A DNA stretch of 64,000 nt from assembly GCA_025526995.1 (NCBI GenBank), contig JAHLKG010000003.1, positions 1 to 64,000 on the forward strand. Reading direction: 5' to 3'. How positions within the stretch are numbered: the first letter of the stretch is position 1; every line of letters starts with the position of its first letter. A program made the translations under genes and the position numbers. A model generated the notes under the pieces. That model had not been told where the DNA came from and made no database searches. It saw nothing but the letters and a program-made list of their open reading frames with translations. Positions 1 to 63,426 of this stretch are shown here, one piece after another. The stretch comes from Powellomyces hirtus (Eukaryota; Chytridiomycota; Chytridiomycetes; Spizellomycetales; Powellomycetaceae).

Positions 1-305
1 AACCCTAACCCGAACCCTAACCCTAACCCGAACCCGAACCCTAACCCGAACCCTAAACCCGAACCCGAACCCGAAACCCGACTACCCGAACCCGAACCCG
101 AACCCTAACCCGAACCCTAACCCAACCCTAACCCTAACCCTAACCCTAACCCTAACCCGAACCCTAACCCTAACCCTAACCCTAACCCTAACCCTAACCC
201 TAACCCTAACCCTAACCCTAACCCTAACCCTAACCCTAACCCTAACCCTAACCCTAACCCTAACCCTAACCCTAACCCTAACCCTAACCCTAACCCTAAC
301 CCTAA
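1..305. repeat. Telomeric repeat array (CCCTAA)n
   Basis: Tandem CCCTAA on the plus strand, equivalent to TTAGGG running toward the left end, the orientation expected of a left chromosome terminus. Bases 1-165 mix CCCTAA with CCCGAA variants and spacing errors (for example around 53-90). Bases 166-305 are essentially pure CCCTAA. The array abuts transposon sequence at 306 with no subtelomeric spacer. Read on the minus strand it is an open Gly-Leu repeat continuing the RT reading frame; that is a by-product, not a protein. Confidence 0.95.
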
Positions 306-960
306 GCCATTGATACTGAAGAGATGGCCGCAGAATTCAATTTCCTTTTGGCCCCATTGACATTTGGCAGCGTTAACATAGAGCGAATGATCTTGTAATC
401 GCTGAAGGACTTCGGCTACGTGTTGGTGTGTAGTCGGATCAGGCGAGAAGATAAGAATGTCGTCGAGGTAGCAGATGATGCAAATATCGTAAAGGTCGCC
501 TAAGACTTGATTCATGAGTCGTTGAAAGGCGCCAGGCACATTGCAAAGCCCAAAGGGCATGACGACATATTCGAAAAGTCCAAATCTTGTGCGGATGGCC
601 GTTTTCTCGCGATCTTCCGGAGCGATGAGCAGTCGATGGTATGCGTCCTTCAAGTCAATGAGCGTGTAGAGACGGGCGCCAAGAAGCTGATTGCGCATTT
701 CTCGAAGATTGGGAAGTGGAGTGCGGTCCTTAATTGTGACGGCATTTAGTCCACGATAGTCCCAACAGACACGAATTCCGCCCGTTTTCTTGACAGCGAA
801 GACCACTGATGCTCCCCATGGTGACTTCGAATGTTGAATCCATCCTTTTGAGAGAAGATGGTCTAGTTGTTTTTGTAGTTTGCTCAGTTGATCTTGTGAT
901 ATGGGACGGATGGCTTGAAAGACAGGTTTCGATCCGGGAATGATATCAATATGAAAGTTA
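306..960 (-). pseudogene. Ty3/gypsy reverse transcriptase, 3'-truncated by telomere
   Basis: The frame reads through the RT domain: a segment ending SKSPWGASVVFAVKK, then DYRGLN, LIDLKDAYH (first catalytic Asp), FGLFEYVVMPFGLCNVPGAFQ and the YLDDILIFS box, then stops being gypsy at the FCGHLFSING segment where telomere begins. In the family this RT copies the element RNA in virus-like particles. The thumb, RNase H and integrase are missing, so the copy is dead. The frame is open upstream of 806, so that position is not a true start. Confidence 0.9.
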
Positions 961-34209: not shown

Positions 34210-34214
34210 ATTCT

Positions 34215-34454
34215 TGTTAGCACGTACAGACTCTGTCATCGAGTCATAACTGCGCCATCGCAGGGCGTATCACGCGATCACGTGAACCCACGTGATCAAC
34301 TCCAATATAAGTAGTTTTCCTTCCATACTCAATATATCGGTGGGACTTTTCTCTTTTTTCTCCAATAGAGCGGGATTAAGGTACTTCGTTGTTCTGCTCA
34401 GTCAACTACCCCAAAGCTTCCTCAATCATCTACTCAGATACTCTCAGACCAACA
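34215..34454 (+). repeat. Copia family 2 LTR (5' of copy C)
   Basis: 240 bp. Contains the dyad GATCACGTGAACCCACGTGATC (34276-34297) and a TATA-like AATATAAG at 34305-34312, with a T-rich likely start region downstream. Confidence 0.95.
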
Positions 34455-34469
34455 GGTTATGAGCCCTGA
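34455..34469 (+). promoter_or_regulatory. Half-tRNA-iMet PBS overlapping the Gag start (copy C)
   Basis: GGTTATGAGCCCTGA. The ATG at 34459, which would pair with the CAU anticodon of the primer tRNA, is also the first codon of the Gag ORF (MSPEMVGNE). An alternative start is the next ATG five codons on. Confidence 0.7.
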
Positions 34470-35958
34470 AATGGTAGGCAACGAAACGAGCCCCCGGTAC
34501 ACTCGTAGTATGTTAAGACGCCTAACGGGTCGACAGACCCCAGGGTCCAATACGCTACAACGAGCTGTAGAACGTGCAGCAAAGAAAAGCGTACGAGTGC
34601 CTGGTGAATGGACATCACCAGACAATGGAGGGAAATCTGCCGGTAACGATACACTGGCAGAGCCAACGCCTTTAAGTGTTGACGCCAACGAGGGTGACGA
34701 CGCATTGGAAGGGCGTACCCAAAACATTGACCGACACGATGGCAAGGTCGATACCCGTCCCCTATCAAGCAGTACGGATGATCACAGAACGATCAACTAC
34801 AGTACTCCAGCGGCATTCCCACGTGGGGAATCAGCGAACACCGTGCATGTCCGCCCGCGTGAGGCGGACGTGGATAGGATAGATCGGCTTGAGAATTCTC
34901 TAGCCCAACTAACGGAAATGCTCCAAATGAAATGGCGCATGGATCAGGATATGAACGTCCCGATCAACCCTCAGGTACGTACGGCACAACGGTGCGTACG
35001 CACACCATCACCCACTCGCAACGACGGGTTCGCTGCACCGTGGACAGAGTACAATCAGGAGATTGGAGCTCAACAGGAATACCAACGTTCTCCAATCAAA
35101 CGCCGCCCTACATCACCGACATTGAGCATACACAGCGTGACGACCAAAATCGTCGACAGTCGAGGTGCGAAGGCTTTCGTGGATGGAACGCTGAAAGATA
35201 TTGGATCTTAGAATGGAGAAGCCAATATGGTCAAACTTCGAAGGTTCATCGAAAAGATTGAGACAGTTGTGAAGTACGAAATGGTTCCGCCCAAGTTTCT
35301 CGTAGATTTTGTGGCTACGAAACTCACAGGATGGGCATACACTTGGTGGCAGTCGCTCTCCCCAAGTAAAAGGAATGAAATTACGACGTGGCAGGACTTT
35401 GAAGACGTTGATTCAGGACGAACCAACACCGGTCTTAGGTCCGCCCTTCTGGCGCGCTTCGCGCCACGAAACCACACTAGAGATTCGCTGCAGAAATTAC
35501 GGGAATTGCGTCCCAAAGGCCGCATGGATGAGTACATAACTCAGTTCAACATGCTGGCATTCTCTCTGCCGAAGACACCGGATTACGTCCTTCAGGATTA
35601 CTTCATCAACGCGCTATTACCAGACCTTGCGGCCTTGGTTCAGGCTAATGAAGAAAACATAACTGATTTGAGCAGTTTACAGGCCGCTGCATCCAGGATC
35701 GCCGCCAACATGGCTAAGAAACGGATACGCGACCAGGAGCTGCACACACTGACGCCTCTAAGAAACAAAAGGGTGGCAAGACCCACAGGGAGAAGTCAAC
35801 GAACGGCAAGAAGGAAAAGGAATCCACTCCATCAAACAAAGGCCAACAACACAAGTCGAGTTGTTGGGCCTGTGGAGACAACACCGGACACAGGAGTGCA
35901 AAGTGTTAAAGAAGTTCAAATCCGAGATGGAGAAGAACAAGACGAAGCAGTCGTCTGA
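34459..35958 (+). pseudogene. Copia family 2 Gag (copy C)
   Basis: Two ORFs in the same frame separated by one TAG (35209-35211): an N-terminal half with Arg-rich and Ser/Thr-rich segments, and a Gag core (FVATKLTGWAYTWWQSLS, LRELRPKGRMDEYITQFN). The TAG is also present in copy D. Downstream, a Lys-rich tail and knuckle-like CWACGDNTGHRSAKC (C-x2-C-x5-H-x4-C) lie in a third frame around 35750-35909. Either recoding joins these frames or both copies descend from a defective master. Confidence 0.85.
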
Positions 35959-38900
35959 TGGTGCTGTTAGCACAAATGCTGTGGAAGCATTACACGTCTG
36001 GGTCCGCCAAGAACAACCGTATGAAGCCCTCATCGACTCTGGCGCTACGGACCACATGACACCTCACAAAGCGACCTTGGATCACTCAACCGTGTACAGT
36101 GATGTCAGAGCTGTTATGCTTGCTGACAAAACATCACTACCCTCTACAGTTCGAGGTACGGTACGAGTAGAAGTTAACAACTATCCGAATCTGCTCGAGT
36201 TGGGCAGAGTCCTGCATGTGCCAGGATTACGACGAGATCTCGTATCGGTAGCGAAATGCAACGATCAAGGCGTTGACGTGCTCTTCAAGTCGAATGGAGA
36301 CGTCATTTTCACGCGAGACGGCAAAGATATCGCCAAAGGCGTACGCCGCAACAACGCGTATTACCCGCAAGGTACGCTGCTGTCTGAAAGTCTGTGGTCA
36401 GATTCAGAAGCATGCACTGTCGAAGTCTCTCCTACACTCGCTCATGCTCGTCTTGGACACGTTGGCAAACACGTCCTGGAGAAGATGGCATTGGTTACGG
36501 ACGGTTGGTCCGTAGTGGGGAATCTAAGCGACTTCAAAGATTGTGAAGCCTGCGTGCTAGGAAAAGCCGCTTGTCTTCCATTCTCCCTTGGAAATGTTGA
36601 AGCCAGGGAGATCCGTGAGCTGATTCATTCAGACCTACAAGGACCATTTCGCATCCCTGGTTACGAAGGATCACGCTATTCGCTCGAGTTCATTGAACAC
36701 GCATCCAGATACGTGACTGTTTTCCCTATTCCTTCAAAGGATTCAGCAGTCATACTCGAAAAGTTTCTCATCTACAAGGCTTATATTGAGAAACAGGCTG
36801 ACCGACAAATCAAGATTCTACGTACGGATCGAGGCACCAAATACTTTGGCGAGGTTCTAGAGTACCTATTGAAGAATGGTATCACTCATCAAAAGTCCGC
36901 GGCCTATTCGAGTCAGCAAAACGGGATTGCCAAACAATGGCATCGCACGGCGCTGGACAGGGTCCACGCCACCTTCGCAGATATGAAACTACCCCAAAGG
37001 TTCTGGCCTGCTCTACTGGTAGCGGCTGGATACATCTACTCCCTTAGGTACAACCGCATCAACAAGAAGACGCCGCATGAAATCTTATTTGGCCGGCGTC
37101 CTGATGTCGCCCATCTTCGGCGTATCAGTTGCGTGGCGTATTCCGTTCTAACTAGCAAGGGACGCAATAAAATGGGGAATCGAGCAAAGAAGGCTTACTT
37201 GGTAGGCTATGCTCAGCCCACAGGTACCAAGGGGTATCTGGTATGGGATCCTGTCACTGACAAGGTCGAAGTGTCACGAGACGTGATCTTCAAAGAAGAC
37301 TTGGGACTCGAACCCAAATATCAGCAGGATCCAGCACATCTTGACCTTCTAGATGAGGAGAGTCAGGAGGATGACGTCAAATACGCCGTGGAGGCGATTG
37401 TCGACGAGCGCCGCAGTAAGGTGCACACAAAAGAGTACTTGGTTAAGTGGGAGGGATATCAAGAACCTACCTGGGAGTCCCGACTTTCATTACTCGATAC
37501 TACCACATTGGATGACTGGGAGAATCGAGTAGCCGCGTACGATTTCGGCACACGACGAAATGACCCCATTGCTGCATACGCCGCCCGCGCGCAGACTCAA
37601 GCAACGATCAACGAAGACGCCATGACATGGAAGCAAGCGATGAAAACCCCTCAGAAGGAGGAATTCCTCAAGGCTGCACGCATTGAGTAACAATCCCTGG
37701 TCGACAACGGTACATGGGAGCTCACCAAGCGTCCACGTAACAAGCGCGTGATTGGAACAACATGGGTCTTTCAAACGAAGGTCAATCCCAATGGCACCTT
37801 TAACAAGTTCAAAGCCAGAGCAGTGGCTCAAGGCTTCTCTCAACAACCTGGTCGCAATTTTGGTGGTACATACTCACCGACGCTACCATTCACAGCGCTA
37901 CGCCTCTTCCTGGCGTATTGTGTTCAGCACGGGCTGGACATCCACAGTATGGACGCTGTCACCGCCTTCCTTAACAGTGATATTGATAAGGATATCTATA
38001 TCGAGCAGTTTGAGGGATTCGAAGATCCGGATCACCCCAAAGGCGATTGGGCCCTGAAGCTACTGAAAGCTCTCTACGGCCTGAAGCAATCACCTCTTCT
38101 TTGGTATGAGACCTTGAAGACTGCACTGTTGAAGCTCGGCTACGAAGCGGTTTCTGTATGCCCGTGTATCTTTTTCAAGTACGCGACAGATGACCGTACA
38201 CCTCCGTCGAATGACAACTTGGTCCTTATTCTCGTCTTCGTCAATGATCTGCTTATTGCAGCGAAGGATCCGGAGATTCTGGCGAACAGCAAGATGGAGC
38301 TACATTCGAAGTTCAAGTTTACGGAACAAGGTCGCGTAACCAGTCACCTTGGTCTCGTCTACAAATATGACTTCGACTCTCCTGTTCGTACCCTCGAAAT
38401 CTCAAATGTCAAGTACATTGACAACGCTCTCGAACAATTCGGCATGAGCGACTGCCATCCTGTCTCCACTCCGTACGCCGTGTCAGCGCGTAACCAACAA
38501 CTGGAGGATTCGACACCATTCACGAATCTCAAAATGTATCAGGAAGCAGTGGGGGTCCTCACTTGGGCCTCCATCACATGGCGATGGGATATCGCCACTG
38601 CAGTCGGTTACGTTGCGCGCCGCGTTGCCGCACCTACCAACTCCGACTGGAACAATGTTAAGCGCATTTTCCGCTATTTGAAGGGTACCCGCGATTATGC
38701 CCTCAAGTTCACATCCGAACAAAATGATCCGCGTGGCCTACGCGTATTCACGGATGCGGATTATGCAGGAGAACTCACTGACCGGACGTCCACTACAGGT
38801 ATTTTGGCCCTTTACAATGGGTTTCCTGTTCTGTGGAAAAGCAGCAAGCAGAAGTGCACCATCCAAAGTACGACCGAAGCGGAGTATATAGCTGCCAGTA

Positions 38901-39190
38901 CCGGCCACAACAAAGCCAAATGACTACGCCAACTCTTGGCGGAAGTTTTGGGACCTCAACCGGATTACAAATCTCGACCGGTCCCTCTACATGTCGATAA
39001 TCAGAGCACCGGGGCCTTGATTCAGTCTAAGGCTATCAACCAACGCACCAAACACATCAACGTTCGGTACCACGCTATACGCGATTCGTTCGCGAAGCAA
39101 ATTATCGAAATCATCGACACCAATACGGACGATCAACTGGCGGACATCTTTACAAAGCCTTTCCCAGCTATCAAACATAAGGACACTGAC
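35861..39190 (+). pseudogene. Copia family 2 Pol with chromodomain-like segment (copy C)
   Basis: Frame +1 relative to Gag. Protease LIDSGATDHMT, GAG-pre-integrase ARLGHVGKH and CEACVLGK, integrase HSDLQGP and LRTDRGTKY, then QQNGIAKQWHRT where Lys replaces the catalytic Glu. Chromodomain-like segment at about 37380-37500 (YAVEAIVDERRSK, EYLVKWEGYQEPTWES). RT with MDAVTAFLN and the mutated FVNDLLIA. RNase H FTDADYAGE ... LADIFTKPFP. Stops: TAA 37688-37690 (TAC in D) and TGA 38921-38923 (shared with D, where the family has Trp). No ATG starts the pol frame, as expected for a frameshift product. Confidence 0.88.
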
Positions 39191-39326
39191 CTGAAGATTA
39201 CAAATGGGACTCATATATTTGATAAACGAATACACAATGAGGGCGCGCCTACAGAAGCACACCGAGCTCAAGTGTTACTTGCTGAATGTCAGGAGAATTA
39301 CTCACAACACTGGCTTACCTTGGCAT

Positions 39327-40013
39327 CTACACCGCAATTGCGGAACCCGAAGCAATGCCCCCCAAGGAGGATGGGCCTGCCCCTCCTCCATCATCCTCAT
39401 TGCTTGAGGGTGAGCGTTGGCTTGGAGAGACCGGTGGTCCCTCCAACTCCTCAGCTTCCCCCTCCTCCTCCTCTTCCTCATCATTATATGGAGCTTCTCG
39501 CTCCAGGATGTCCCACATCCTCTTCACCTCCGCTGCAGACTTCTTGTCCGCAGTCTTCTTCTTCGCCTGGGCTGTACCCTTGCCCTTCCCAACCGCCAGC
39601 TTCCGGCTCCGCCGGTCCTCTAGTATGGACCTCAGTCCATGAAGCGTCCCGGTCGCCAGTGCGCGACCCAGAGGTGTACCAGACCTCGCCCGGTCTTTTA
39701 CCCGGTCTTTCGCCTGCTCGATGTGACGTTCAAGGACCCCTTGACGGTCCTTACAGTGGAACTGTCGGGCATGCGCTGCCGACATCGTTCGAATCTCCGC
39801 TCGGGACAACCCCGCAGCGGGTGTGCCTCCCTGTGACGCAGAAGGCACCACTGACGACGGCACAGCAGGAGCTGTGGTCGTCGCAGGAGCTGTTACCGGC
39901 GGTCCCGTCTTTCTCGCCGTCTGCTTCGCTTTGCCCGAACCTGACAACTACACCAGCACATAGTTAGAGCTTACGCCTCATTTGCGCGGATCTCATAGAC
40001 GTACCCTAGCCAT
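39327..40013 (-). CDS. Antisense accessory ORF of copia family 2 (copy C), spliced
   Basis: Antisense to the element, between RNase H and 3' LTR. Exon 2 (39327-39947) is a 206-codon open frame beginning with a non-ATG codon. A GT...AG intron of 57 nt (39948-40004; donor GTACGT, branch CTAAC, acceptor GTGTAG) would join it in phase to a 9-nt exon ATGGCTAGG (40005-40013), giving about 209 aa (MAR-LSGSGKAKQTARK). The product has a Thr/Pro/Ala-rich basic N-terminus, a basic helical middle (ERHIEQAKDRVKDRARSG; KKKTADKKSAAEVKRMWDIL) and an acidic Glu tract near the C-terminus. I recognise no family. It is conserved in copy D. The sense strand is also open here but accumulates more replacements. Confidence 0.6.
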
Positions 40014-40128
40014 TCCTCTTATTCTTAAAATGTAATAAATGGGGGTGTTTGGGGGGGTGCGCGGGGCTGTGTAGTAAAAGTAGATAGAGAGACTCTCTCA
40101 CTGCCAGACTGACAGGTCTGAGTGGGGG

Positions 40129-40368
40129 TGTTAGCACGTACAGACTCTGTCATCGAGTCATAACTGCGCCATCGCAGGGCGTATCACGCGATCACGTGAA
40201 CCCACGTGATCAACTCCGATATAAGTAGTTTTCCTTCCATACTTAATATATCGGTGGGACTTTTCTCTTTTTTCTCCAATAGAGCGGGATTAAGTTACTT
40301 CGTTGTTCTGCTCAATCAACTACCCTAAAGCTTCCTCAATCATCTACTCAGATACTCTCAGACCAACA
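40129..40368 (+). repeat. Copia family 2 LTR (3' of copy C)
   Basis: 240 bp, a few single-base differences from the 5' LTR. Followed by the ATTCT duplication. Confidence 0.95.
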
Positions 40369-40373
40369 ATTCT

Positions 40374-49291: not shown

Positions 49292-52200
49292 TTCGCCAAG
49301 AAGAGCGAAAACATCGCGCTCGAAGCCCAACCTTCAAAGAAAGACGGCTCAAGTCACAAGAAGACCGACGCGAAGAAGACCACAGACTCAAAGAAGAGAC
49401 AGAACTTCCCCTGTTGGTTATGCAATTCGAATGAACATACCCCATTCAATTGTCCCCTCAAAGCCAAGGCAGTCAAAGCCTTAAAACCCGCTGCTAATGC
49501 CAACATTGCAGAAGCACATAACGCCACTACATTGGCTTACCTGGATTTGGGCTGCTCACAGCACATGACGAATGACATTTCCATTCTCGAATCCTACGAA
49601 GAGCACTCAACGCGCGTCAGATTTGGAAACAATGCCTTTCTCGATGCCGAAGCGAAAGGGAACGTTATCTTGAAGCTTCCAGATGGAGATGTACCCCTCA
49701 CTGATGTTCTCTACGTTCCGAAACTCACCAAGACTCTCATCTCGGTCTCCGCACGCACCAAAGATGGAAAGAAAGTCACCTTTGAAGATGAGAGCGCTAT
49801 CATTCAAGACTGCATTGGCACTACAAATGACATCACCATACCTCTCGTTCGAGGAATGTATCACATCTCGCCAACTCCGATGGCTTTCGCTACTCAAACT
49901 CGCTCAAGGACAAATGCGTCCAATGTACCGACACACATGTCGAAAAATACATCTACCGAATTGACAAAATGGACAAACGCGTCCAATGTACCAACACACG
50001 CGTCCGATACATCGATTCAAGCGCTCAACCTGTCGACAGACGCTACCGGCATCACGGTCACGCGTTCTACCCCACTCCAAGCCACGTCAGAGGGGCCGGC
50101 CGCCCCAAATGGGGGGCCAGCCGGCCCCATACTGGAGAGTGAGGGGGCTGGCTGTGGTGGGGGGCCGGCCGCCCCAAAAGCATCGGATGATGCCAAGGAT
50201 GGTGCCCCCTTGGGGGCACCATCCGCCGATGGCGCCGCCGCCACCGCTGCTTTGGCGGCTTCTTCTGGGGCTGGTTCTGGTCCCTCTTCTCCTGTCAACA
50301 AAGGAACCCTCTGGCATCACCGATTGGGCCATCCTGGCACTCACATCATGAAGCAACTCAAGCTCCCAATGACCAACAAAGTCTGCAAAGGTTGCGAATT
50401 TGGTAAGCACAAGCGCTCACCATTCAACGGTACGATGACACGGTCCAAGACGCCACTCGATCGCCTACATTTCGACCTAAACGGTCCGCACATACCCGCG
50501 GTTGGCGATGAGAAATATGCCCTCGTTGTGATCGATGACTATTCACGCTTCACATGGATCTTCTTCTTGAAGACGAAGAGCGAATCTACTGCAAAATTGA
50601 TTGAATTCATCAATTTCATCGAAAAACAGACCAACGAAAGGGTCAGACGACTTCATTCCGATCGAGGGGGGGAGTTTGTCAATCACGATCTGAAAGAATT
50701 CATTTCGAAAAAGGGCATTCTGCACGAACTCACCGCTGCAGATTCCCCACAGTCCAACAGTGTCGCTGAAAGGTTCAACCTCACTCTGTTTGACACCATT
50801 TGTTCATTGGAACACTCATACGGCATCCCGAAACAACTCTGGACAGAGTTAGCGGCTACATCAGTCTACTTACGGAATTGCCTACCCCACAAGTCCAATA
50901 ACAACATTTTGCCGTACGAACGGCTCAATGGCGAAGAGCCCTCACTTTCTCACCTTTGTGTGATTTGGGCCAATGCCTTTGTGCATCTTGTCAAGAGAAA
51001 ACAAGTCTCAAAGTTGGCACCGCGCGCCACATGTCTCAAACTCATCGGTTACGAATTTGACGGCGCTTACCACTGTTGGGATGACAACCGTCAAGAAATA
51101 GTCATTTCTCGCGATGTAACGTTTGACGAAACCTCAGCACTCGAACTAGCAAAAGACTACATTCCGCCCGAAGAACTCTACGAAGTCGAAGAGATTCTCG
51201 ACTCACGTGATGGCCCGGAAGGCCCCGAATTCCTCCGCAAATGGCTAGAATTCGAAAACGAAGATAATACATGGGAACCGCTCGAAAATGTCAATCATTT
51301 GACAGTCTTCGCTGACTACATCAACGAGAAGACGGCGACCGCTCTTTCGGCTGCAAGTACCGAAGAACCCCAAACTTACAAACAAGCGCTCTCATCAGAT
51401 GACGCGCCGAAGTGGACCGAGGCCATAAATGCCAAATTGAAGTCCCTTCATACCAATGAAACATGGGAAGTCATTAACCCCAAATCCTTACCGCACAATC
51501 AACGGCCCATCCGCACTAAATGGGTATTCAAGATTAAGCGAGACCTGAATGGTCAACCCCAACGATAGAAGGCCCGGCTTGTAGTGAAAGGCTTCGAACA
51601 ACGCTACGGCATCGACTACAACGAAACCTACGCTCCGGTTGCCAAGATAGCTACCCAACGCGTCCTCCTCGCTCTCGCCGCCAGTCTAGGCTTGAAATGC
51701 CATCAAATGGATGTAGTAACCGCATTCCTGAATGGGATCGTTACCGAGACCATCCTAATCTATGCCCCTGAAGGCTCTGGCTTTCCGCCCGGGACCATCC
51801 TTTGACTCCGAAAGGCCCTTTACGGTCTGAAACAAGCCCCGCGCGAATGGTACTCCCTACTTCACAAGGAACTGACCTCCTTGGGATTCAAGCGCCTGGC
51901 AAATGACAATGCCGTTTACATCAGAACTCTACCTGAAAGTGACTCATTGCAGTACATCTCCGTCTACGTTGACGATCTCCTCATTTTCGCAAAGACCAAA
52001 TCGGAAATCTTGTCAATTAAGACATCCCTGCACAACGAGTTCAACATGACAGACCTAGACGAAGTCAATCACTACCTGGGAATGAGAGTTCGACGCGACT
52101 ACTCAAGGCACGTCATCTACCTCGATCAAGAGTCATATGTAAATGACATCCTCGAGCGCTTTGGTATGCAAGATTGCAAGCCCGTCAACACTCCGATGGA

Positions 52201-57246: not shown

Positions 57247-57264
57247 TATTGGCGTTTCCAGTAC
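57247..57264 (-). repeat. Copia family 1 LTR relic, left piece
   Basis: TATTGGCGTTTCCAGTAC matches the end of a minus-oriented family-1 LTR and continues at 63427 on the far side of copy D. The AGTAC duplication of copy D lies within it. Confidence 0.75.
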
Positions 57265-57505
57265 TGTTGGTCTGAGAGTATCTGGGTAGATAGTTGAGGA
57301 AGCTTTCAGGGTAGTTGACTGAGCAAAACAACGAAGTAACTTAATCCCGCTCTTGTTGGAGAAAAAGAGAAAAGTCCCACCGATATATTAAGTATGTAAG
57401 GAAAACTACTTAAATCGGAGTTGATCACGTGGGTTCACGTGATCGCGTGATACGCCCTGCGATGGCGCAGTTGTGACTCGATGACAGAGTCTGTACGTGC
57501 TAACA
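57265..57505 (-). repeat. Copia family 2 LTR (3' of copy D)
   Basis: 241 bp. The TATA-like motif of the other LTRs reads TTTAAG here. Contains the CACGTG dyad near 57424-57445. Confidence 0.94.
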
Positions 57506-57621
57506 CCCCCACTCAGACCTGTCAGTCTGTCAGTGAGAGAGTTGCTCTATCTACTTTTACTACACACCCCTGCGCACACACCCCACACACCCCCATTTAT
57601 TACAATTTAAGAATACAAGGA

Positions 57622-58308
57622 ATGGCGAGGGTTCGTCTAGGAGATCCGCGCAAATGAGGCGTATGCTCTAACTATGTGCCGGTGTAGTTGTCAGGTTCGG
57701 GCAAGGCGAAGCAAACGGCGAGAAAAACGGGACCGCCGGTAACTGCTCCTGCGACGACCACAGCTCCGGCTGTGCCGTCGACAGTGGTGCCCTCTGCGCC
57801 AGGGGGAGGCGCACCCGCTGCGGGGTTGTCCCAAGCGGAGATTCGGACGATGTCGGCTGCGTATGCCCGACACTTTCACTGTAAGGACCGTCAAGGGGTC
57901 CTTGAACGTCACATCGAGCAGGCGAAAGACCGGGTAAAAGACCGGGCGAGGTCTGGTACACCTCTGGGTCGCGCACTGGCGACCGGGACGCTTCATGGAC
58001 TGAGGTCCATACTAGAGGACCGGCGGAGCCGGAAGCTGGCGGTTGGGAAGGGCAAGGGTACAGCCCAGGCGAAGAAGAAGACTGCGGACAAGAAGTCTGC
58101 AGCGGAGGTGAAGAGGATGTGGGACATCCTGGAGCGAGAAGCTCCATATAATGATGAGGAAGAGGAGGAGGAGGGGGAAGCTGAGGAGTTGGAGGGACCA
58201 CCGGTCTCTCCAAGCCAACGCTCACCCTCAAGCAATGAGGATGATGGAGGAGGGGCAGGCCCATCCTCCTTGGGGGGCATTGCTTCGGGTTCCGCAATTG
58301 CGGTGTAG
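57622..58308 (+). CDS. Antisense accessory ORF of copia family 2 (copy D), spliced
   Basis: Second copy of the antisense ORF. Exon 1 ATGGCGAGG (57622-57630), intron of exactly 57 nt (57631-57687; donor GTTCGT, branch CTAAC, acceptor GTGTAG), exon 2 57688-58308. About 209 aa; the last two-thirds is identical to copy C, with seven replacements between residues 30 and 65. The donor differs from copy C by one base (GTACGT there). Composition: basic Ala/Thr/Pro-rich N-terminus, basic helices (QAKDRVKDRARSGTPLGRAL), then an acidic tract. Function unknown; a nucleic-acid-binding or silencing-counteracting role is only a guess. Confidence 0.6.
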
Positions 58309-58444
58309 ATGCCAAGGTAAGCCAGTGTTGTGAGTAATTCTCCTGACATTCAGCAAGTAACACTTGAGCTCGGTGTGCTTCTGTAGGCGCGCCCTCATTG
58401 TGTATTCGTTTATCAAATATATGAGTCCCATTTGTAATCTTCAG

Positions 58445-61400
58445 GTCAGTGTCCTTATGTTTGATAGCTGGGAAAGGCTTTGTAAAGATGTCCGCCAGTT
58501 GATCGTCCGTATTGGTGTCGATGATTTCGATAATTTGCTTCGCGAACGAATCGCGTATAGCGTGGTACCGAACGTTGATGTGTTTGGTGCGTTGGTTGAT
58601 AGCCTTAGACTGAATCAAGGCCCCGGTGCTCTGATTATCGACATGTAGAGGGACCGGTCGAGATTTGTAATCCGGTTGAGGTCCCAAAACTTCCGCCAAG
58701 AGTTGGCGTAGTCATTTGGCTTTGTTGTGGCCGGTACTGGCAGCTATATACTCCGCTTCGGTCGTACTTTGGATGGTGCACTTCTGCTTGCTGCTTTTCC
58801 ACAGAACAGGAAACCCATTGTAAAGGGCCAAAATACCTGTAGTGGACGTCCGGTCAGTGAGTTCTCCTGCATAATCCGCATCCGTGAATACGCGTAGGCC
58901 ACGCGGATCATTTTGTTCGGATGTGAACTTGAGGGCATAATCGCGGGTACCCTTCAAATAGCGGAAAATGCGCTTAACATTGTTCCAGTCGGAGTTGGTA
59001 GGTGCGGCAACGCGGCGCGCAACGTAACCGACTGCAGTGGCGATATCCCATCGCCATGTGATGGAGGCCCAAGTGAGGACCCCCACTGCTTCCTGATACA
59101 TTTTGAGATTCGTGAATGGTGTCGAATCCTCCAGTTGTTGGTTACGCGCTGACACGGCGTACGGAGTGGAGACAGGATGGCAGTCGCTCATGCCGAATTG
59201 TTCGAGAGCGTTGTCAATGTACTTGACATTTGAGATTTCGAGGGTACGAACAGGAGAGTCGAAGTCATATTTGTAGACGAGACCAAGGTGACTGGTTACG
59301 CGACCTTGTTCCGTAAACTTGAACTTCGAATGTAGCTCCATCTTGCTGTTCGCCAGAATCTCCGGATCCTTCGCTGCAATAAGCAGATCATTGACGAAGA
59401 CGAGAATAAGGACCAAGTTGTCATTCGACGGAGGTGTACGGTCGTCTGTCGCGTACTTGAAACAGATAGACGGGCATACAGAAACCGCTTCATAGCCGAG
59501 CTTTAACAGTGCAGTCTTCAAGGTCTCATACCAAAGAAGAGGTGATTGCTTCAGGCCGTAGAGAGCTTTCAGTAGCTTCAGGACCCAATCGCCTTTGGGG
59601 TGATCCGGATCTTCGAATCCCTCAAACTGCTCGATATAGATATCCTTATCAATATCACTGTTAAGGAAGGCGGTAACAGCGTCCATACTGTGGATGTTGA
59701 GCCTGTGCTGAACACAATACGCCAAGAAGAGGCGTAGCGCTGTGAATGGTAGCGTAGGTGAGTATGTATCACCAAAATCATGACCAGGTTGTTGAGAGAA
59801 GCCTTGAGCCACTGCTCTGGCTTTGAACTTGTTAAAGGTGCCATCGGGATTGACCTTTGTTCGAAAGACCCATGTTGTTCTGATCACGCGCTTGTTACGT
59901 GGACGCTTGGTGAGCTCACATGTGCCGTTGTCGACCAGGGATTGGTACTCAGTGCGTGCAGCCTTGAGAAATTCCTCCTTCTGAGGGGTTTTCATCGCTT
60001 GCTTCCATGTCATGGCGTCTTCGTTGATCGTTGCTTGAGTCCGCGTGCGGGCGGCGTATGCAGCAATGGGGTCATTTCGTTGTGTGCCGACACCGTACGC
60101 GGCGACTCGAGTCTCCCAGTCATCCAATGCGGTAGTATCGAGTAGTGAAAGTCGGGACTCCCACGTAGGTTCTTGATATCCCTCCCACTTAACCAAGTAC
60201 TCTTTTGTGTGCACCTTACTGCGGCGCTCGTCGATAATCGCTTCCACGGCATATTCGACGTCATCCTCCTGACTCTCCTCATCTAGAAGGTCAAGATGTG
60301 CTGGGTCCTGCTGATATTTGGGTTCGAGTCCCAAGTCGTCTTTGAAGATCACATCTCGTGACACTTCGACCTTGTCAGTAACAGGATCCCATACCAGATA
60401 CCCCTTGGTACCTGTGGGTTGAGCATAGCCTACCAAGTAAGCCTTCTTTGCTCGATTCCCCATTTTATCGCGTCCTTTGCTTGTTAGAACGGAATACGTC
60501 ACGCAACCGATACGCCGAAGATGGGCGACATCAGGACGCCGGCCAAACAAGAGTTCGTGCGGCATCTTCTTGTTGATGCGGTTGTACGTAAGGAAGAAGA
60601 TGTAACCAGCCGCTACCAGTAGAGCAGGCCAGAATCTTTGGGGTAGTTTCGTATCCACAAAGGTGGCGCGGACCCTGTCCAGCGCCGTGCGATGCCATCG
60701 TTTGGCAAACCCGTTTTGCTGACTTGAATAGGCCGCGGACTTTTGATGAGTGATACCATTCTTCAGTAGGTACTTTAGAACCTCGCCAAAGTATTCGGTG
60801 CCTTGATCCGTACGTAGAATCTTGATTTGTCGGTCAGTCTGTTTCTCAATCCAAGCCTTGTAGATGAGAAACTTTTCGAGTATGACTGCTGATTCCTTTG
60901 AAGGAATAGGGAAAACAGTCACGTATCTGGATGCGTGTTCAATGAACTCGAGCGAATAGCGTGATCCTTCATAACCAGGGATGCGAAATGGTCCTTGTAG
61001 GTCTGAATGAATCAGCTCACGGATCTCCCTGGCTTCAACATTTCCAAGGGAGAATGGAAGACAAGCGGCTTTTCCTAGCACGCAGGCTTCACAATCTTTG
61101 AAGTCGCTTAGATTCCCCACTACGGACCAACCGTCCGTAACCAATGCCATCTTCTCCAGGACGTGTTTGCCAACGTGTCCAAGACGAGCATGAGCGAGTG
61201 TAGGAGAGACTTCGACAGTGCATGCTTCTGAATCTGACCACAGACTTTCAGACAGCAGCGTACCTTGCGGGTAATACGCGTTGTTGCGGCGTACGCCTTT
61301 GGCGATATCTTTGCCGTCTCGCGTGAAAATGACGTCTCCATTCGACTTGAAGAGCACGTCAACGCCTTGATCGTTGCATTTCGCTACCGATACGAGATCT

Positions 61401-61774
61401 CGTCGTAATCCTGGCACATGCAGGACTCTGCCCAACTCGAGCAGATTCGGATAGTCGTTAACTTCTACTCGTACCGTACCTCGAACTGTAGAGGGTAGTG
61501 ATGTTTTGTCAGCAAGCATAACAGCTCTGACATCACTGTACACGGTTGAGTGATCCAAGGTCGCTTTGTGAGGTGTCATGTGGTCCGTAGCGCCAGAGTC
61601 GATGAGGGCTTCATACGGTTGTTCTTGGCGGACCCAGACGTGTAATGCTTCCACAGCATTTGTGCTAACAGCACCATCAGACGACTGCTTCGTCTTGTTC
61701 TTCTCCATCTCGGATTTGAACTTCTTTAACACTTTGCACTCCTGTGTCCGGTGTTGTCTCCACAGGCCCAACAA
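58445..61774 (-). pseudogene. Copia family 2 Pol with chromodomain-like segment (copy D)
   Basis: An open frame of 1020 codons (58712-61774) covers protease (LIDSGATDHMT), pre-integrase (ARLGHVGKH, CEACVLGK), integrase (HSDLQGP, LRTDQGTEY, QQNGFAKRWHRT with Lys for catalytic Glu), chromodomain-like segment (YAVEAIIDERRSK, EYLVKWEGYQEPTWES), RT with FVNDLLIA for YVDDLLI, and most of RNase H. A TGA (58712-58714, shared with copy C) precedes LRQLLAEVLG and the terminal LADIFTKPFP. Despite the long frame, two catalytic sites are lost. Confidence 0.9.
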
Positions 61775-63176
61775 CTCGACTTGTGTTGTTGGCCTTTGTT
61801 TGATGGAGTGAATTCCTTTTCCTTCTTGCCGTTCGTTGACTTCTCCCTGTGGGTCTTGCCACCCTTTTGTTTCTTAGAGGCGTCAGTGTGTGCAGCTCCT
61901 GGTCGCGTATCCGTTTCTTAGCCATGTTGGCGGCGATCCTGGATGCAGCGGCCTGTAAACTGCTCAAATCAGTTATGTTTTCTTCATTAGCCTGAACCAA
62001 GGCCGCAAGGTCTGGTAATAGCGCGTTGATGAAGTAATCCTGAAGGACGTAATCCGGTGTCTTCGGCAGAGAGAATGCCAGCATGTTGAACTGAGTTATG
62101 TACTCATCCATGCGGCCTTTGGGACGCAATTCCCGTAATTTCTGCAGCAAATCTCTAGTGTGGTTTCGTGGCGCGAAGCGCGCCAGAAGGGCGGACCTAA
62201 GACCGGTGTTGGTTCGTCCTGAATCAACGTCTTCAAAGTCATGCCACGTCGTAATTTCATTCCTTTTACTTGGGGAGAGCGACTGCCACCAAGTGTATGC
62301 CCATCCTGTGAGTTTCGTAGCCACAAAATCTACGAGAAACTTGGGCGGAACCATTTTGTACTTCACAACTGTCTCAATCTTTTCGATGAACCTTCGAAGT
62401 TTGACCATATTGGCTTCTCCATTCTAAGATCCAATATCTTTCAGCGTTCCATCCACGAAAGCCTTTGCACCTCGACTGTCGACGATTTTGGTCGTCACGC
62501 TGTGTATGCTCGATGTCGGTGATGTAGGGCGGCGTTCGATTGGAGAACGTTGGTATTCCTGTTGAGCTCCAATCTCCTGATTGTACTCTGTCCACGGTGC
62601 AGCGAACCCGTTGTTGCGAGTGGGTGATGGTGTGCGTACGCGCCGTTGCGCCGTACGCACCTGAGGGTTGACCGGGATGTTCATATCCTGATCCATGCGC
62701 CATTTCATTTGGAGCATTTCCGTTGGTTGGGCTAGAGAATTCTCAAGCCGATCTATCCTATCCACGTCCGCCTCACGCGGGCGGACATGCACGGTGTTTG
62801 CTAATTCCCCACTTGGGAATGCCGTTGGAGTACTGTAGTTGATCGTTCTGTGATCATCCGTACTGCTTGATAGGGGACGGGTATTGACCTTGCCATCGCA
62901 TCGGTCGATGTTTCGGGTACGCCCTTCCAATGCGTCGTCGCCCTCGTTGGCGTCAACACTTAAAGGCGTTGGCTCTGCCAGTGTATCGTTACTGGCAGAG
63001 TTCCCTCCATTGCTTGGTGATGTCCATTCACCAGGCACTCGTGCGCTTTTCTTTGCGGCACGTTCTACGGCTCGTTGTAGCGTATTGGACCCTGGGGTCT
63101 GTCGACCCGTTAGGCGTCTTAACATACTACAAGTGTACCGGGGGCTTGTTTCGTTGCCTACCATTTCAGGGCTCAT
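61677..63176 (-). pseudogene. Copia family 2 Gag (copy D)
   Basis: Same arrangement as copy C: N-terminal ORF 62424-63176 starting at the ATG inside the PBS, a TAG in frame, then the Gag core ORF 61677-62408 (FVATKLTGWAYTWWQSLS). The zinc-knuckle-like CWACGDNTGH segment is again out of frame with both Gag and Pol. Confidence 0.85.
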
Positions 63177-63180
63177 AACC
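63166..63180 (-). promoter_or_regulatory. Half-tRNA-iMet PBS overlapping the Gag start (copy D)
   Basis: Reverse complement of TCAGGGCTCATAACC; adjacent to the LTR. The internal ATG is the first codon of Gag, as in copy C. Confidence 0.7.
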
Positions 63181-63421
63181 TGTTGGTCTGAGAGTATCTG
63201 GGTAGATAGTTGAGGAAGCTTTCAGGGTAGTTGACTGAGCAAAACAACGAAGTAACTTCATCCCGCTCTTGTTGGAGAAAAAGAGGAAAGTCCCACCAAT
63301 ATATTAAGTATGTAAGGAAAACTACTTATATCGGAGTTGATCACGTGGGTTCACGTGATCGCGTGATATGCCCTGCGATGGCGCAGTTGTGACTCGATGA
63401 CAGAGTCTGTACGTGCTAACA
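63181..63421 (-). repeat. Copia family 2 LTR (5' of copy D)
   Basis: 241 bp, with a few single-base differences from the 3' LTR. On the minus strand GATATAAG provides the TATA-like element. Confidence 0.94.
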
Positions 63422-63426
63422 AGTAC

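Follow-up and report, generated by a model that had tools for sequence, protein, structure and literature searches.

How a Copia-family LTR retrotransposon of Powellomyces hirtus came to carry a long open reading frame (ORF) on the strand opposite to gag-pol, and whether that frame serves the element, are the questions raised by this locus. The window analysed here is the opening 64 kb of contig 3 in a 29.3 Mb assembly of 60 contigs, and the whole of that assembly was searched. Our preferred explanation, to which we assign a probability of roughly two in three, is that the frame is an accessory gene of the element, that its antisense RNA is spliced, and that the resulting protein regulates the element itself.

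In both window copies the preliminary description had placed a 206-codon antisense ORF between RNase H and the 3′ LTR, preceded by ATGGCxAGG and a 57-nt segment of the form GT...CTAAC...GTGTAG. Both features were recovered exactly as described (Table 1). One subfamily has an intron-like segment of 58 nt instead of the 57 nt of the window copies. A nested transposon was considered as the origin of the ORF and rejected, as no convincing inverted repeat was found at its flanks.

Table 1. Features of the two Copia copies and of the predicted antisense gene (window positions)
Feature	Position	Strand	Remarks
Copia-family LTR retrotransposon, copy 1	34215..40368	+	LTRs and target duplication
Copy 1 LTRs	34215-34454, 40129-40368		5 of 240 positions differ
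Copy 1 target duplication	34210-34214, 40369-40373		5 bp, ATTCT
Copy 1 pol	35927..39200	+	Integrase, chromodomain, reverse transcriptase, RNase H
Copy 1 pol-frame tail	39371..39967	+	198-codon ORF in frame with RNase H; overlaps antisense ORF
Copy 1 antisense exon 2	39327..39947	-	206 codons plus TAG
Copy 1 predicted intron	39948..40004	-	57 nt, GTACGT...CTAAC...GTGTAG
Copy 1 antisense exon 1	40005..40013	-	ATG GCT AGG
3′ LTR edge stretch	40105..40134		30 bases; purine tract and palindrome-like CAGACTGACAGGTCTG
Same Copia family, copy 2	57265..63421	-	
Copy 2 LTRs	57265-57505, 63181-63421		
Copy 2 target duplication	57260-57264, 63422-63426		GTACT
Copy 2 antisense exon 1	57622..57630	+	ATG GCG AGG
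Copy 2 predicted intron	57631..57687	+	57 nt, GTTCGT...CTAAC...GTGTAG
Copy 2 antisense exon 2	57688..58308	+	206 codons plus stop

The host element has the hallmarks of the Copia superfamily. Its LTRs end in TG...CA, its target duplications (ATTCT and GTACT) are 5 bp long, and in pol the integrase lies ahead of RVT_2 and RNase H; RNase H was located from the translation, and integrase, chromodomain and RVT_2 by domain search. Two stops break up the pol of copy 1, one at 37688-37690 and one at 38921-38923; copy 2 has the latter as well. At this RNase H codon both window copies read TGA, and the other readable copies read TGG (W). The two copies are mosaics, nearly identical over about 35215-36615, identical from 38215 to about 39615 and around 5% different in most remaining blocks, a pattern that gene conversion or template switching would leave. 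The common TGA together with the mosaic blocks points to shared descent or conversion. Because the copies are mosaics, the identity of the 3′ halves of their ORFs is by itself no evidence of selection, and the window pair cannot tell which strand's frame is the gene.

At E ≤ 1, a protein-level search of the genome found 129 matches, 101 of them near full length. When 16 short pieces were omitted, 99 of the 113 matches used lay antisense within 1.5 kb 3′ of the pol of this Copia family, in 69 cases at a distance of exactly 410 nt. The placement seen in the window is thus the rule across the family. The other 14 have no adjoining scored pol, and the pol matches are a lower bound, with 123 of 619 candidates scored. 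Conversely, 16 pol matches (11 near full length, 4 partial and 1 diverged) have no listed antisense match; for one of the 11 (C38:918), fragments are among the 16 omitted pieces. The diverged Copia element (38% in pol) has a stop soon after RNase H, and no comparable antisense frame was seen by eye in 1.7 kb. At one unpaired locus (L095, C26:198150-199500) the RNase H tail abuts gag sequence in opposite orientation with no pol between them, and the antisense ORF is present beside it. Evenly spaced copies occur at about 12.2 kb on C26 (173176, 185376, 197575) and at about 12.07 kb on C28 (93909, 105979, 118049), reflecting either segmental tandem duplication or an assembly artefact. The ORF is therefore typical of most family copies rather than of one transduced copy, and its preservation extends beyond the window pair, 77 of the 101 near-full-length matches being free of in-frame stops. 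We do not count this intactness as evidence, because young copies may not yet have decayed; the case for preservation across the family comes from the codon-level selection described below.

An intron and a start codon of its own give the ORF a cellular look, and gene capture is known in LTR elements, according to the accessible text of PMC7264820. The preliminary description had accordingly raised the option of a captured host fragment, now retained by the element. Our searches lend this no support. In the 29.3 Mb assembly no significant match lies outside the element, the sole such hit having E = 0.088. Two protein searches returned only two relatives, 85-90% identical and one of them from Powellomyces hirtus; among the roughly 5.8 billion proteins of the database there was no further relative and none unconnected with the element. 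A donor that has diverged, or that belonged to another organism, is possible, and we regard host capture as an unlikely origin. One further candidate, from a scan of viral contigs with the family alignment (L096), showed 50% identity over 38 residues and was judged a chance match. The contig in question has a G+C content of 31.8% and carries phage-like genes; its 181-residue protein that shares the search word is unrelated.

The predicted spliced product has about 209 residues and begins MA(R/K). A structure model, of low to moderate confidence with a mean pLDDT of 58.9, contains helices at residues 49-61, 65-89, 92-114 and 123-150 between disordered ends; block means of pLDDT reach about 69-85 for the helices within 65-150 and are lower for helix 49-61. 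The distribution of charge is uneven, with a ratio of K/R to D/E of 4:0 in residues 1-48, 27:12 in residues 49-150 and 1:15 in the tail. No fold match at E ≤ 0.001 was obtained with Foldseek against the PDB and viral models. The only Pfam hits at E ≤ 1 were MerR-DNA-bind (0.12) and DUF6604 (0.2), both below the cutoff, and sequence searches of the PDB, PHROGs and NCBIfam found nothing (best PHROGs E = 0.18). On the structure model, a basic helical core followed by an acidic tail inclines us to a role in the nucleus or with nucleic acid. Core and tail would fit a nuclear regulator associated with nucleic acid, an argument from resemblance.

A small helical core could also suit a protein that hinders or aids Gag particles in the cytoplasm rather than acting in the nucleus. 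The precedent is Ty1, where a self-encoded regulator, p22/p18, controls copy number (PMC4599808, PMC8458377, as far as their accessible text goes). Ty1 resembles the present family in being a fungal LTR element of the Copia superfamily with a self-encoded regulator, the latter being our proposal for P. hirtus. However, p22 is a piece of Gag, namely a sense-strand fragment derived from its C-terminal half, whereas the antisense product is not derived from Gag: phmmer against the 627 ORFs of the window matched only the two antisense copies, and neither Gag nor any other window ORF showed similarity. Moreover, its core is strongly basic. A role in Gag particles is hence improbable in our judgement. 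We also think it rather improbable that the protein counters host silencing, or that the antisense RNA regulates the element as dsRNA with the protein being secondary. Antisense transcripts can indeed feed dsRNA silencing (PMC7264820, accessible text), but a function of the RNA only would not predict selection in a codon frame.

Purifying selection in the antisense frame supports a gene. Exon 2 variants were classed by whether they were carried by one or by more of 66 distinct copies, and the expected synonymous fraction was derived from the observed mutation types. In the antisense frame, 102 of 222 shared variants were synonymous compared with an expected fraction of 0.296, which corresponds to an omega-like value of 0.49 (block bootstrap 0.39-0.63). 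Single-copy variants had a neutral look (59 of 199 synonymous, omega-like value 1.00). The pol frame behaved alike in both classes, with 66 of 222 shared (1.04) and 56 of 197 single-copy variants (1.11) being synonymous. Fisher's test of shared versus single-copy variants gave p = 0.0006 for the antisense frame and 0.83 for pol. Exclusion of CpG sites left antisense values of 0.42 (shared) and 1.17 (single), and after removal of 15 broken copies the synonymous fractions were 0.482 and 0.352, respectively. Furthermore, the synonymous fraction climbed with the number of carriers, from 0.296 over 0.459, 0.510 and 0.515 to 0.526. Besides the antisense frame, only the -1 frame was lowered for shared variants (0.59, or 0.57 without CpG sites), all others being at or above 1; we read this dip as a shadow because the third positions of the two frames coincide. 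RNase H of the same element, in contrast, follows the sense frame: analysed in the pol frame it gave 0.33 for shared and 0.65 for single-copy variants with the same shadow at 0.47; the analysis comprised 22 copies, 8 of 30 rows having been dropped as near-duplicates, broken or misaligned.

Selection is not evenly distributed along the ORF. The excess of variation at third positions is that of the sense frame as far as about 39200 and that of the antisense frame from about 39480 onwards, up to 39947. It is weak in the interval separating these two segments and over the acidic tail, and selection is likewise weak in the last 50 or so codons. Antisense nonsense variants are mildly below expectation (single 5 versus 7.8, shared 4 versus 6.9). 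Indel runs are multiples of three in 68 of 93 cases, and 18 of the 25 others fall in two broken copies. We set these indels aside because, judged by eye, many sit in an acidic triplet repeat. Taken over the whole family, codon-level selection strongly supports the self-encoded antisense gene postulated at the outset, and that the ORF is a real, selected gene is close to certain.

A feature absent from the preliminary description is that pol does not close behind RNase H: its frame continues across the antisense ORF as far as a TAG that lies within the antisense intron. This holds for 26 of 30 rows, and the four others (L011, L012, L017 and L029) are out of frame at this point through a frameshift or a disturbed upstream flank. 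Codon shuffles put the chance of such openness, given the antisense protein, at 0.0008-0.0066. Sense stops are also fewer than expected (single 4 versus 7.1, shared 2 versus 7.9) and rarer than antisense stops. One might conclude that the functional product is a C-terminal tail of pol, in frame with RNase H, and that the antisense ORF merely results from the composition of this stretch. But selection at the amino acid level is undetected in this tail among the 66 copies, as the values of 1.04 and 1.11 given above indicate, and the third-position excess passes over from the sense frame to the antisense one in the interval from about 39200 to 39480. The codon analysis largely refutes a pol tail as the functional product, which we consider very improbable; something may keep the pol frame open regardless of its residues. 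That the ORF is a functionless product of chance riding on recently amplified, near-identical copies would agree with the 94-97% likeness of the best 30 copies to copy 1 and with stops in 24 of the 101 near-full-length copies, but is barely credible in view of a frame-specific synonymous excess that is seen in shared variants and neither in single-copy variants nor in the pol frame, and of codon 2, where each of the four synonymous codons for Ala occurs.

If the antisense ORF is a gene, how does it start? In the window copies exon 2 offers no in-frame ATG until codon 55, and a TAG directly precedes its codon 1 in 63 of 66 copies. Nevertheless, codons 1-50 show constraint: synonymous changes make up 28 of 55 shared variants there, compared with an expected 0.312 (p = 0.0018). 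Since this constrained stretch lacks an ATG of its own, the upstream ATG should be joined to it by splicing, unless the TTG at exon 2 codon 1 is used; this codon could in principle provide a non-ATG start without splicing.

The putative splice signals were compared in loci drawn from part of the matches, 93 matching loci yielding the 66 distinct sequences. All 66 keep the ATG, a GCN codon at position 2 (GCT 43, GCC 17, GCG 5, GCA 1) and the acceptor AG. The third codon is AGG in 54 copies, AAG in 8, AGT in 2, and AGA and TAG in one each. At the donor, 64 copies have GT, one AT and one GC. The presumed branch site reads CTAAC in 55, CTAAT in 9 and TTAAC in 2 copies, and variation in the surrounding stretch (39955-39969) is just 0.006. 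In L085 (C26), L087 (C4) and L090 (C35) the acceptor is GTGGAG instead of GTGTAG; the stop is lost and the AG is retained. A public partial gene model of Powellomyces hirtus, in which a DNA polymerase is fused to the ORF, enters the ORF at the same predicted acceptor, this model being itself a prediction and not RNA evidence. Its polymerase part found no match in the present genome, so that the record apparently belongs to a different one. Conserved signals in 66 copies together with the constraint on codons 1-50 thus support the apparent splicing of the preliminary description, and we consider it likely that the antisense gene is spliced.

We propose the following course of events. An antisense RNA would begin in or beside the 3′ LTR, where the edge stretch listed in Table 1 is invariant among 22 copies and might act as a regulatory stretch for the antisense gene. 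Splicing would remove the 57-nt intron and lead to the protein of about 209 residues. The element itself would move via its sense RNA, in which an intron of the antisense strand goes unrecognised; the intron may persist through retrotransposition because the sense RNA cannot have it removed. The protein would most likely enter the nucleus and regulate its own element at the level of expression, integration or copy number, a step modelled on the antisense proteins of some retroviruses. Such a self-regulatory nuclear role is plausible, and we advance it tentatively.

Plants and the fungal Boty elements already provide examples of extra antisense genes located between pol and the 3′ LTR. Among the plant elements concerned, Grande and RIRE2 belong to the Gypsy superfamily. 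Antisense additional ORFs in this position, termed aORF-3R, are described for maize Grande (gene23), rice RIRE2, Silene Retand and PvRetro13 in the accessible text of PMC7264820 and PMC11963269, and Retand is likewise assigned to a plant Gypsy lineage (PMC11963269). The P. hirtus ORF resembles them in lying antisense to gag-pol and 3′ of pol, in its presence in most family copies and in its conservation at the protein level. For the Grande aORF, antisense transcription from its own promoter has been reported, and the products of the plant antisense genes are suspected to be nuclear regulators associated with nucleic acid (PMC7264820, PMC11963269). There are also clear differences. The P. hirtus gene sits in a fungal Copia element and is traversed by a pol frame. 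Retand aORFs mostly carry TRP28, whereas the P. hirtus ORF was without TRP28 (PF04195) in the Pfam search. The accessible text of the two papers does not mention introns, the splicing discussed in PMC7264820 concerning env-like or retroviral genes. Closer in host is brtn, the additional antisense gene of Boty-like elements in Botrytis cinerea (Zhao et al. 2011, via PMC7264820, PMC8365987). It shares with the present case a fungal LTR element, but Boty is a Gypsy element, named BcGypsy1 (PMC8365987), and brtn was compared by its description in the accessible text.

With regard to splicing, the nearest parallels are HBZ of HTLV-1 and APH-2 of HTLV-2, which are antisense, spliced and small and regulate their own provirus. 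HBZ has its ATG in exon 1 and a major form of 206 residues (PMC3185765, accessible text). In the P. hirtus family the predicted exon 1 ATG and the putative splice signals are conserved at the sequence level. The ATG of HBZ exon 1 is located inside the 3′ LTR, whereas that of copy 1 (40011-40013) is 115 nt inward of the LTR edge at 40129. Moreover, HBZ has a bZIP domain, in contrast to the antisense product, which has no bZIP match in Pfam and no sequence relation to HBZ. It is conceivable, if somewhat speculative, that an HBZ-like system evolved independently in a Copia retrotransposon, with a spliced antisense gene, a tiny ATG exon, an intron protected by its strand, nuclear feedback on the element's expression or copy number, and an open pol frame opposite.

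Antisense extra genes of LTR elements have long been catalogued without known function (PMC7264820, accessible text). In the accessible text of open PMC papers we did not find such a gene in a Copia element, and that of surveys of fungal LTR elements contains no word beginning with ‘antisense’. A fungal, Copia-borne, probably spliced antisense gene overlapping pol thus appears to be a new form. About a hundred copies in a compact fungal genome provide direct codon-level evidence for selection as a protein, along with conserved splice signals. Should the proposed transcription be demonstrated, the family could be used to find out if regulation by a spliced antisense gene, as in HTLV, extends to retrotransposons outside animals.

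Some minor observations concern the elements of the window rather than the antisense gene. A chromodomain (PF00385) follows the integrase in both Copia families of the window (35927-37690 and 49565-51568); a chromodomain in pol is better known from the Gypsy chromoviruses. The Gag region (34459-35958 in copy 1, 61677-63176 in copy 2) is cut in both copies by an in-frame TAG, at 35209-35211 in copy 1, with an ORF in the same frame behind it. The downstream ORF of copy 1 matches Retrotrans_gag and Ty3_capsid, and either read-through of the stop or shared damage is possible. Just past the 5′ LTR, GGTTATGAGCCC at 34454-34466 resembles the complement of the anticodon arm of the initiator tRNA, which recalls the half-tRNA priming of Drosophila copia. 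Finally, at window positions 117-698, an ORF for a Gypsy-type reverse transcriptase passes into a long Gly-Leu simple-repeat expansion.
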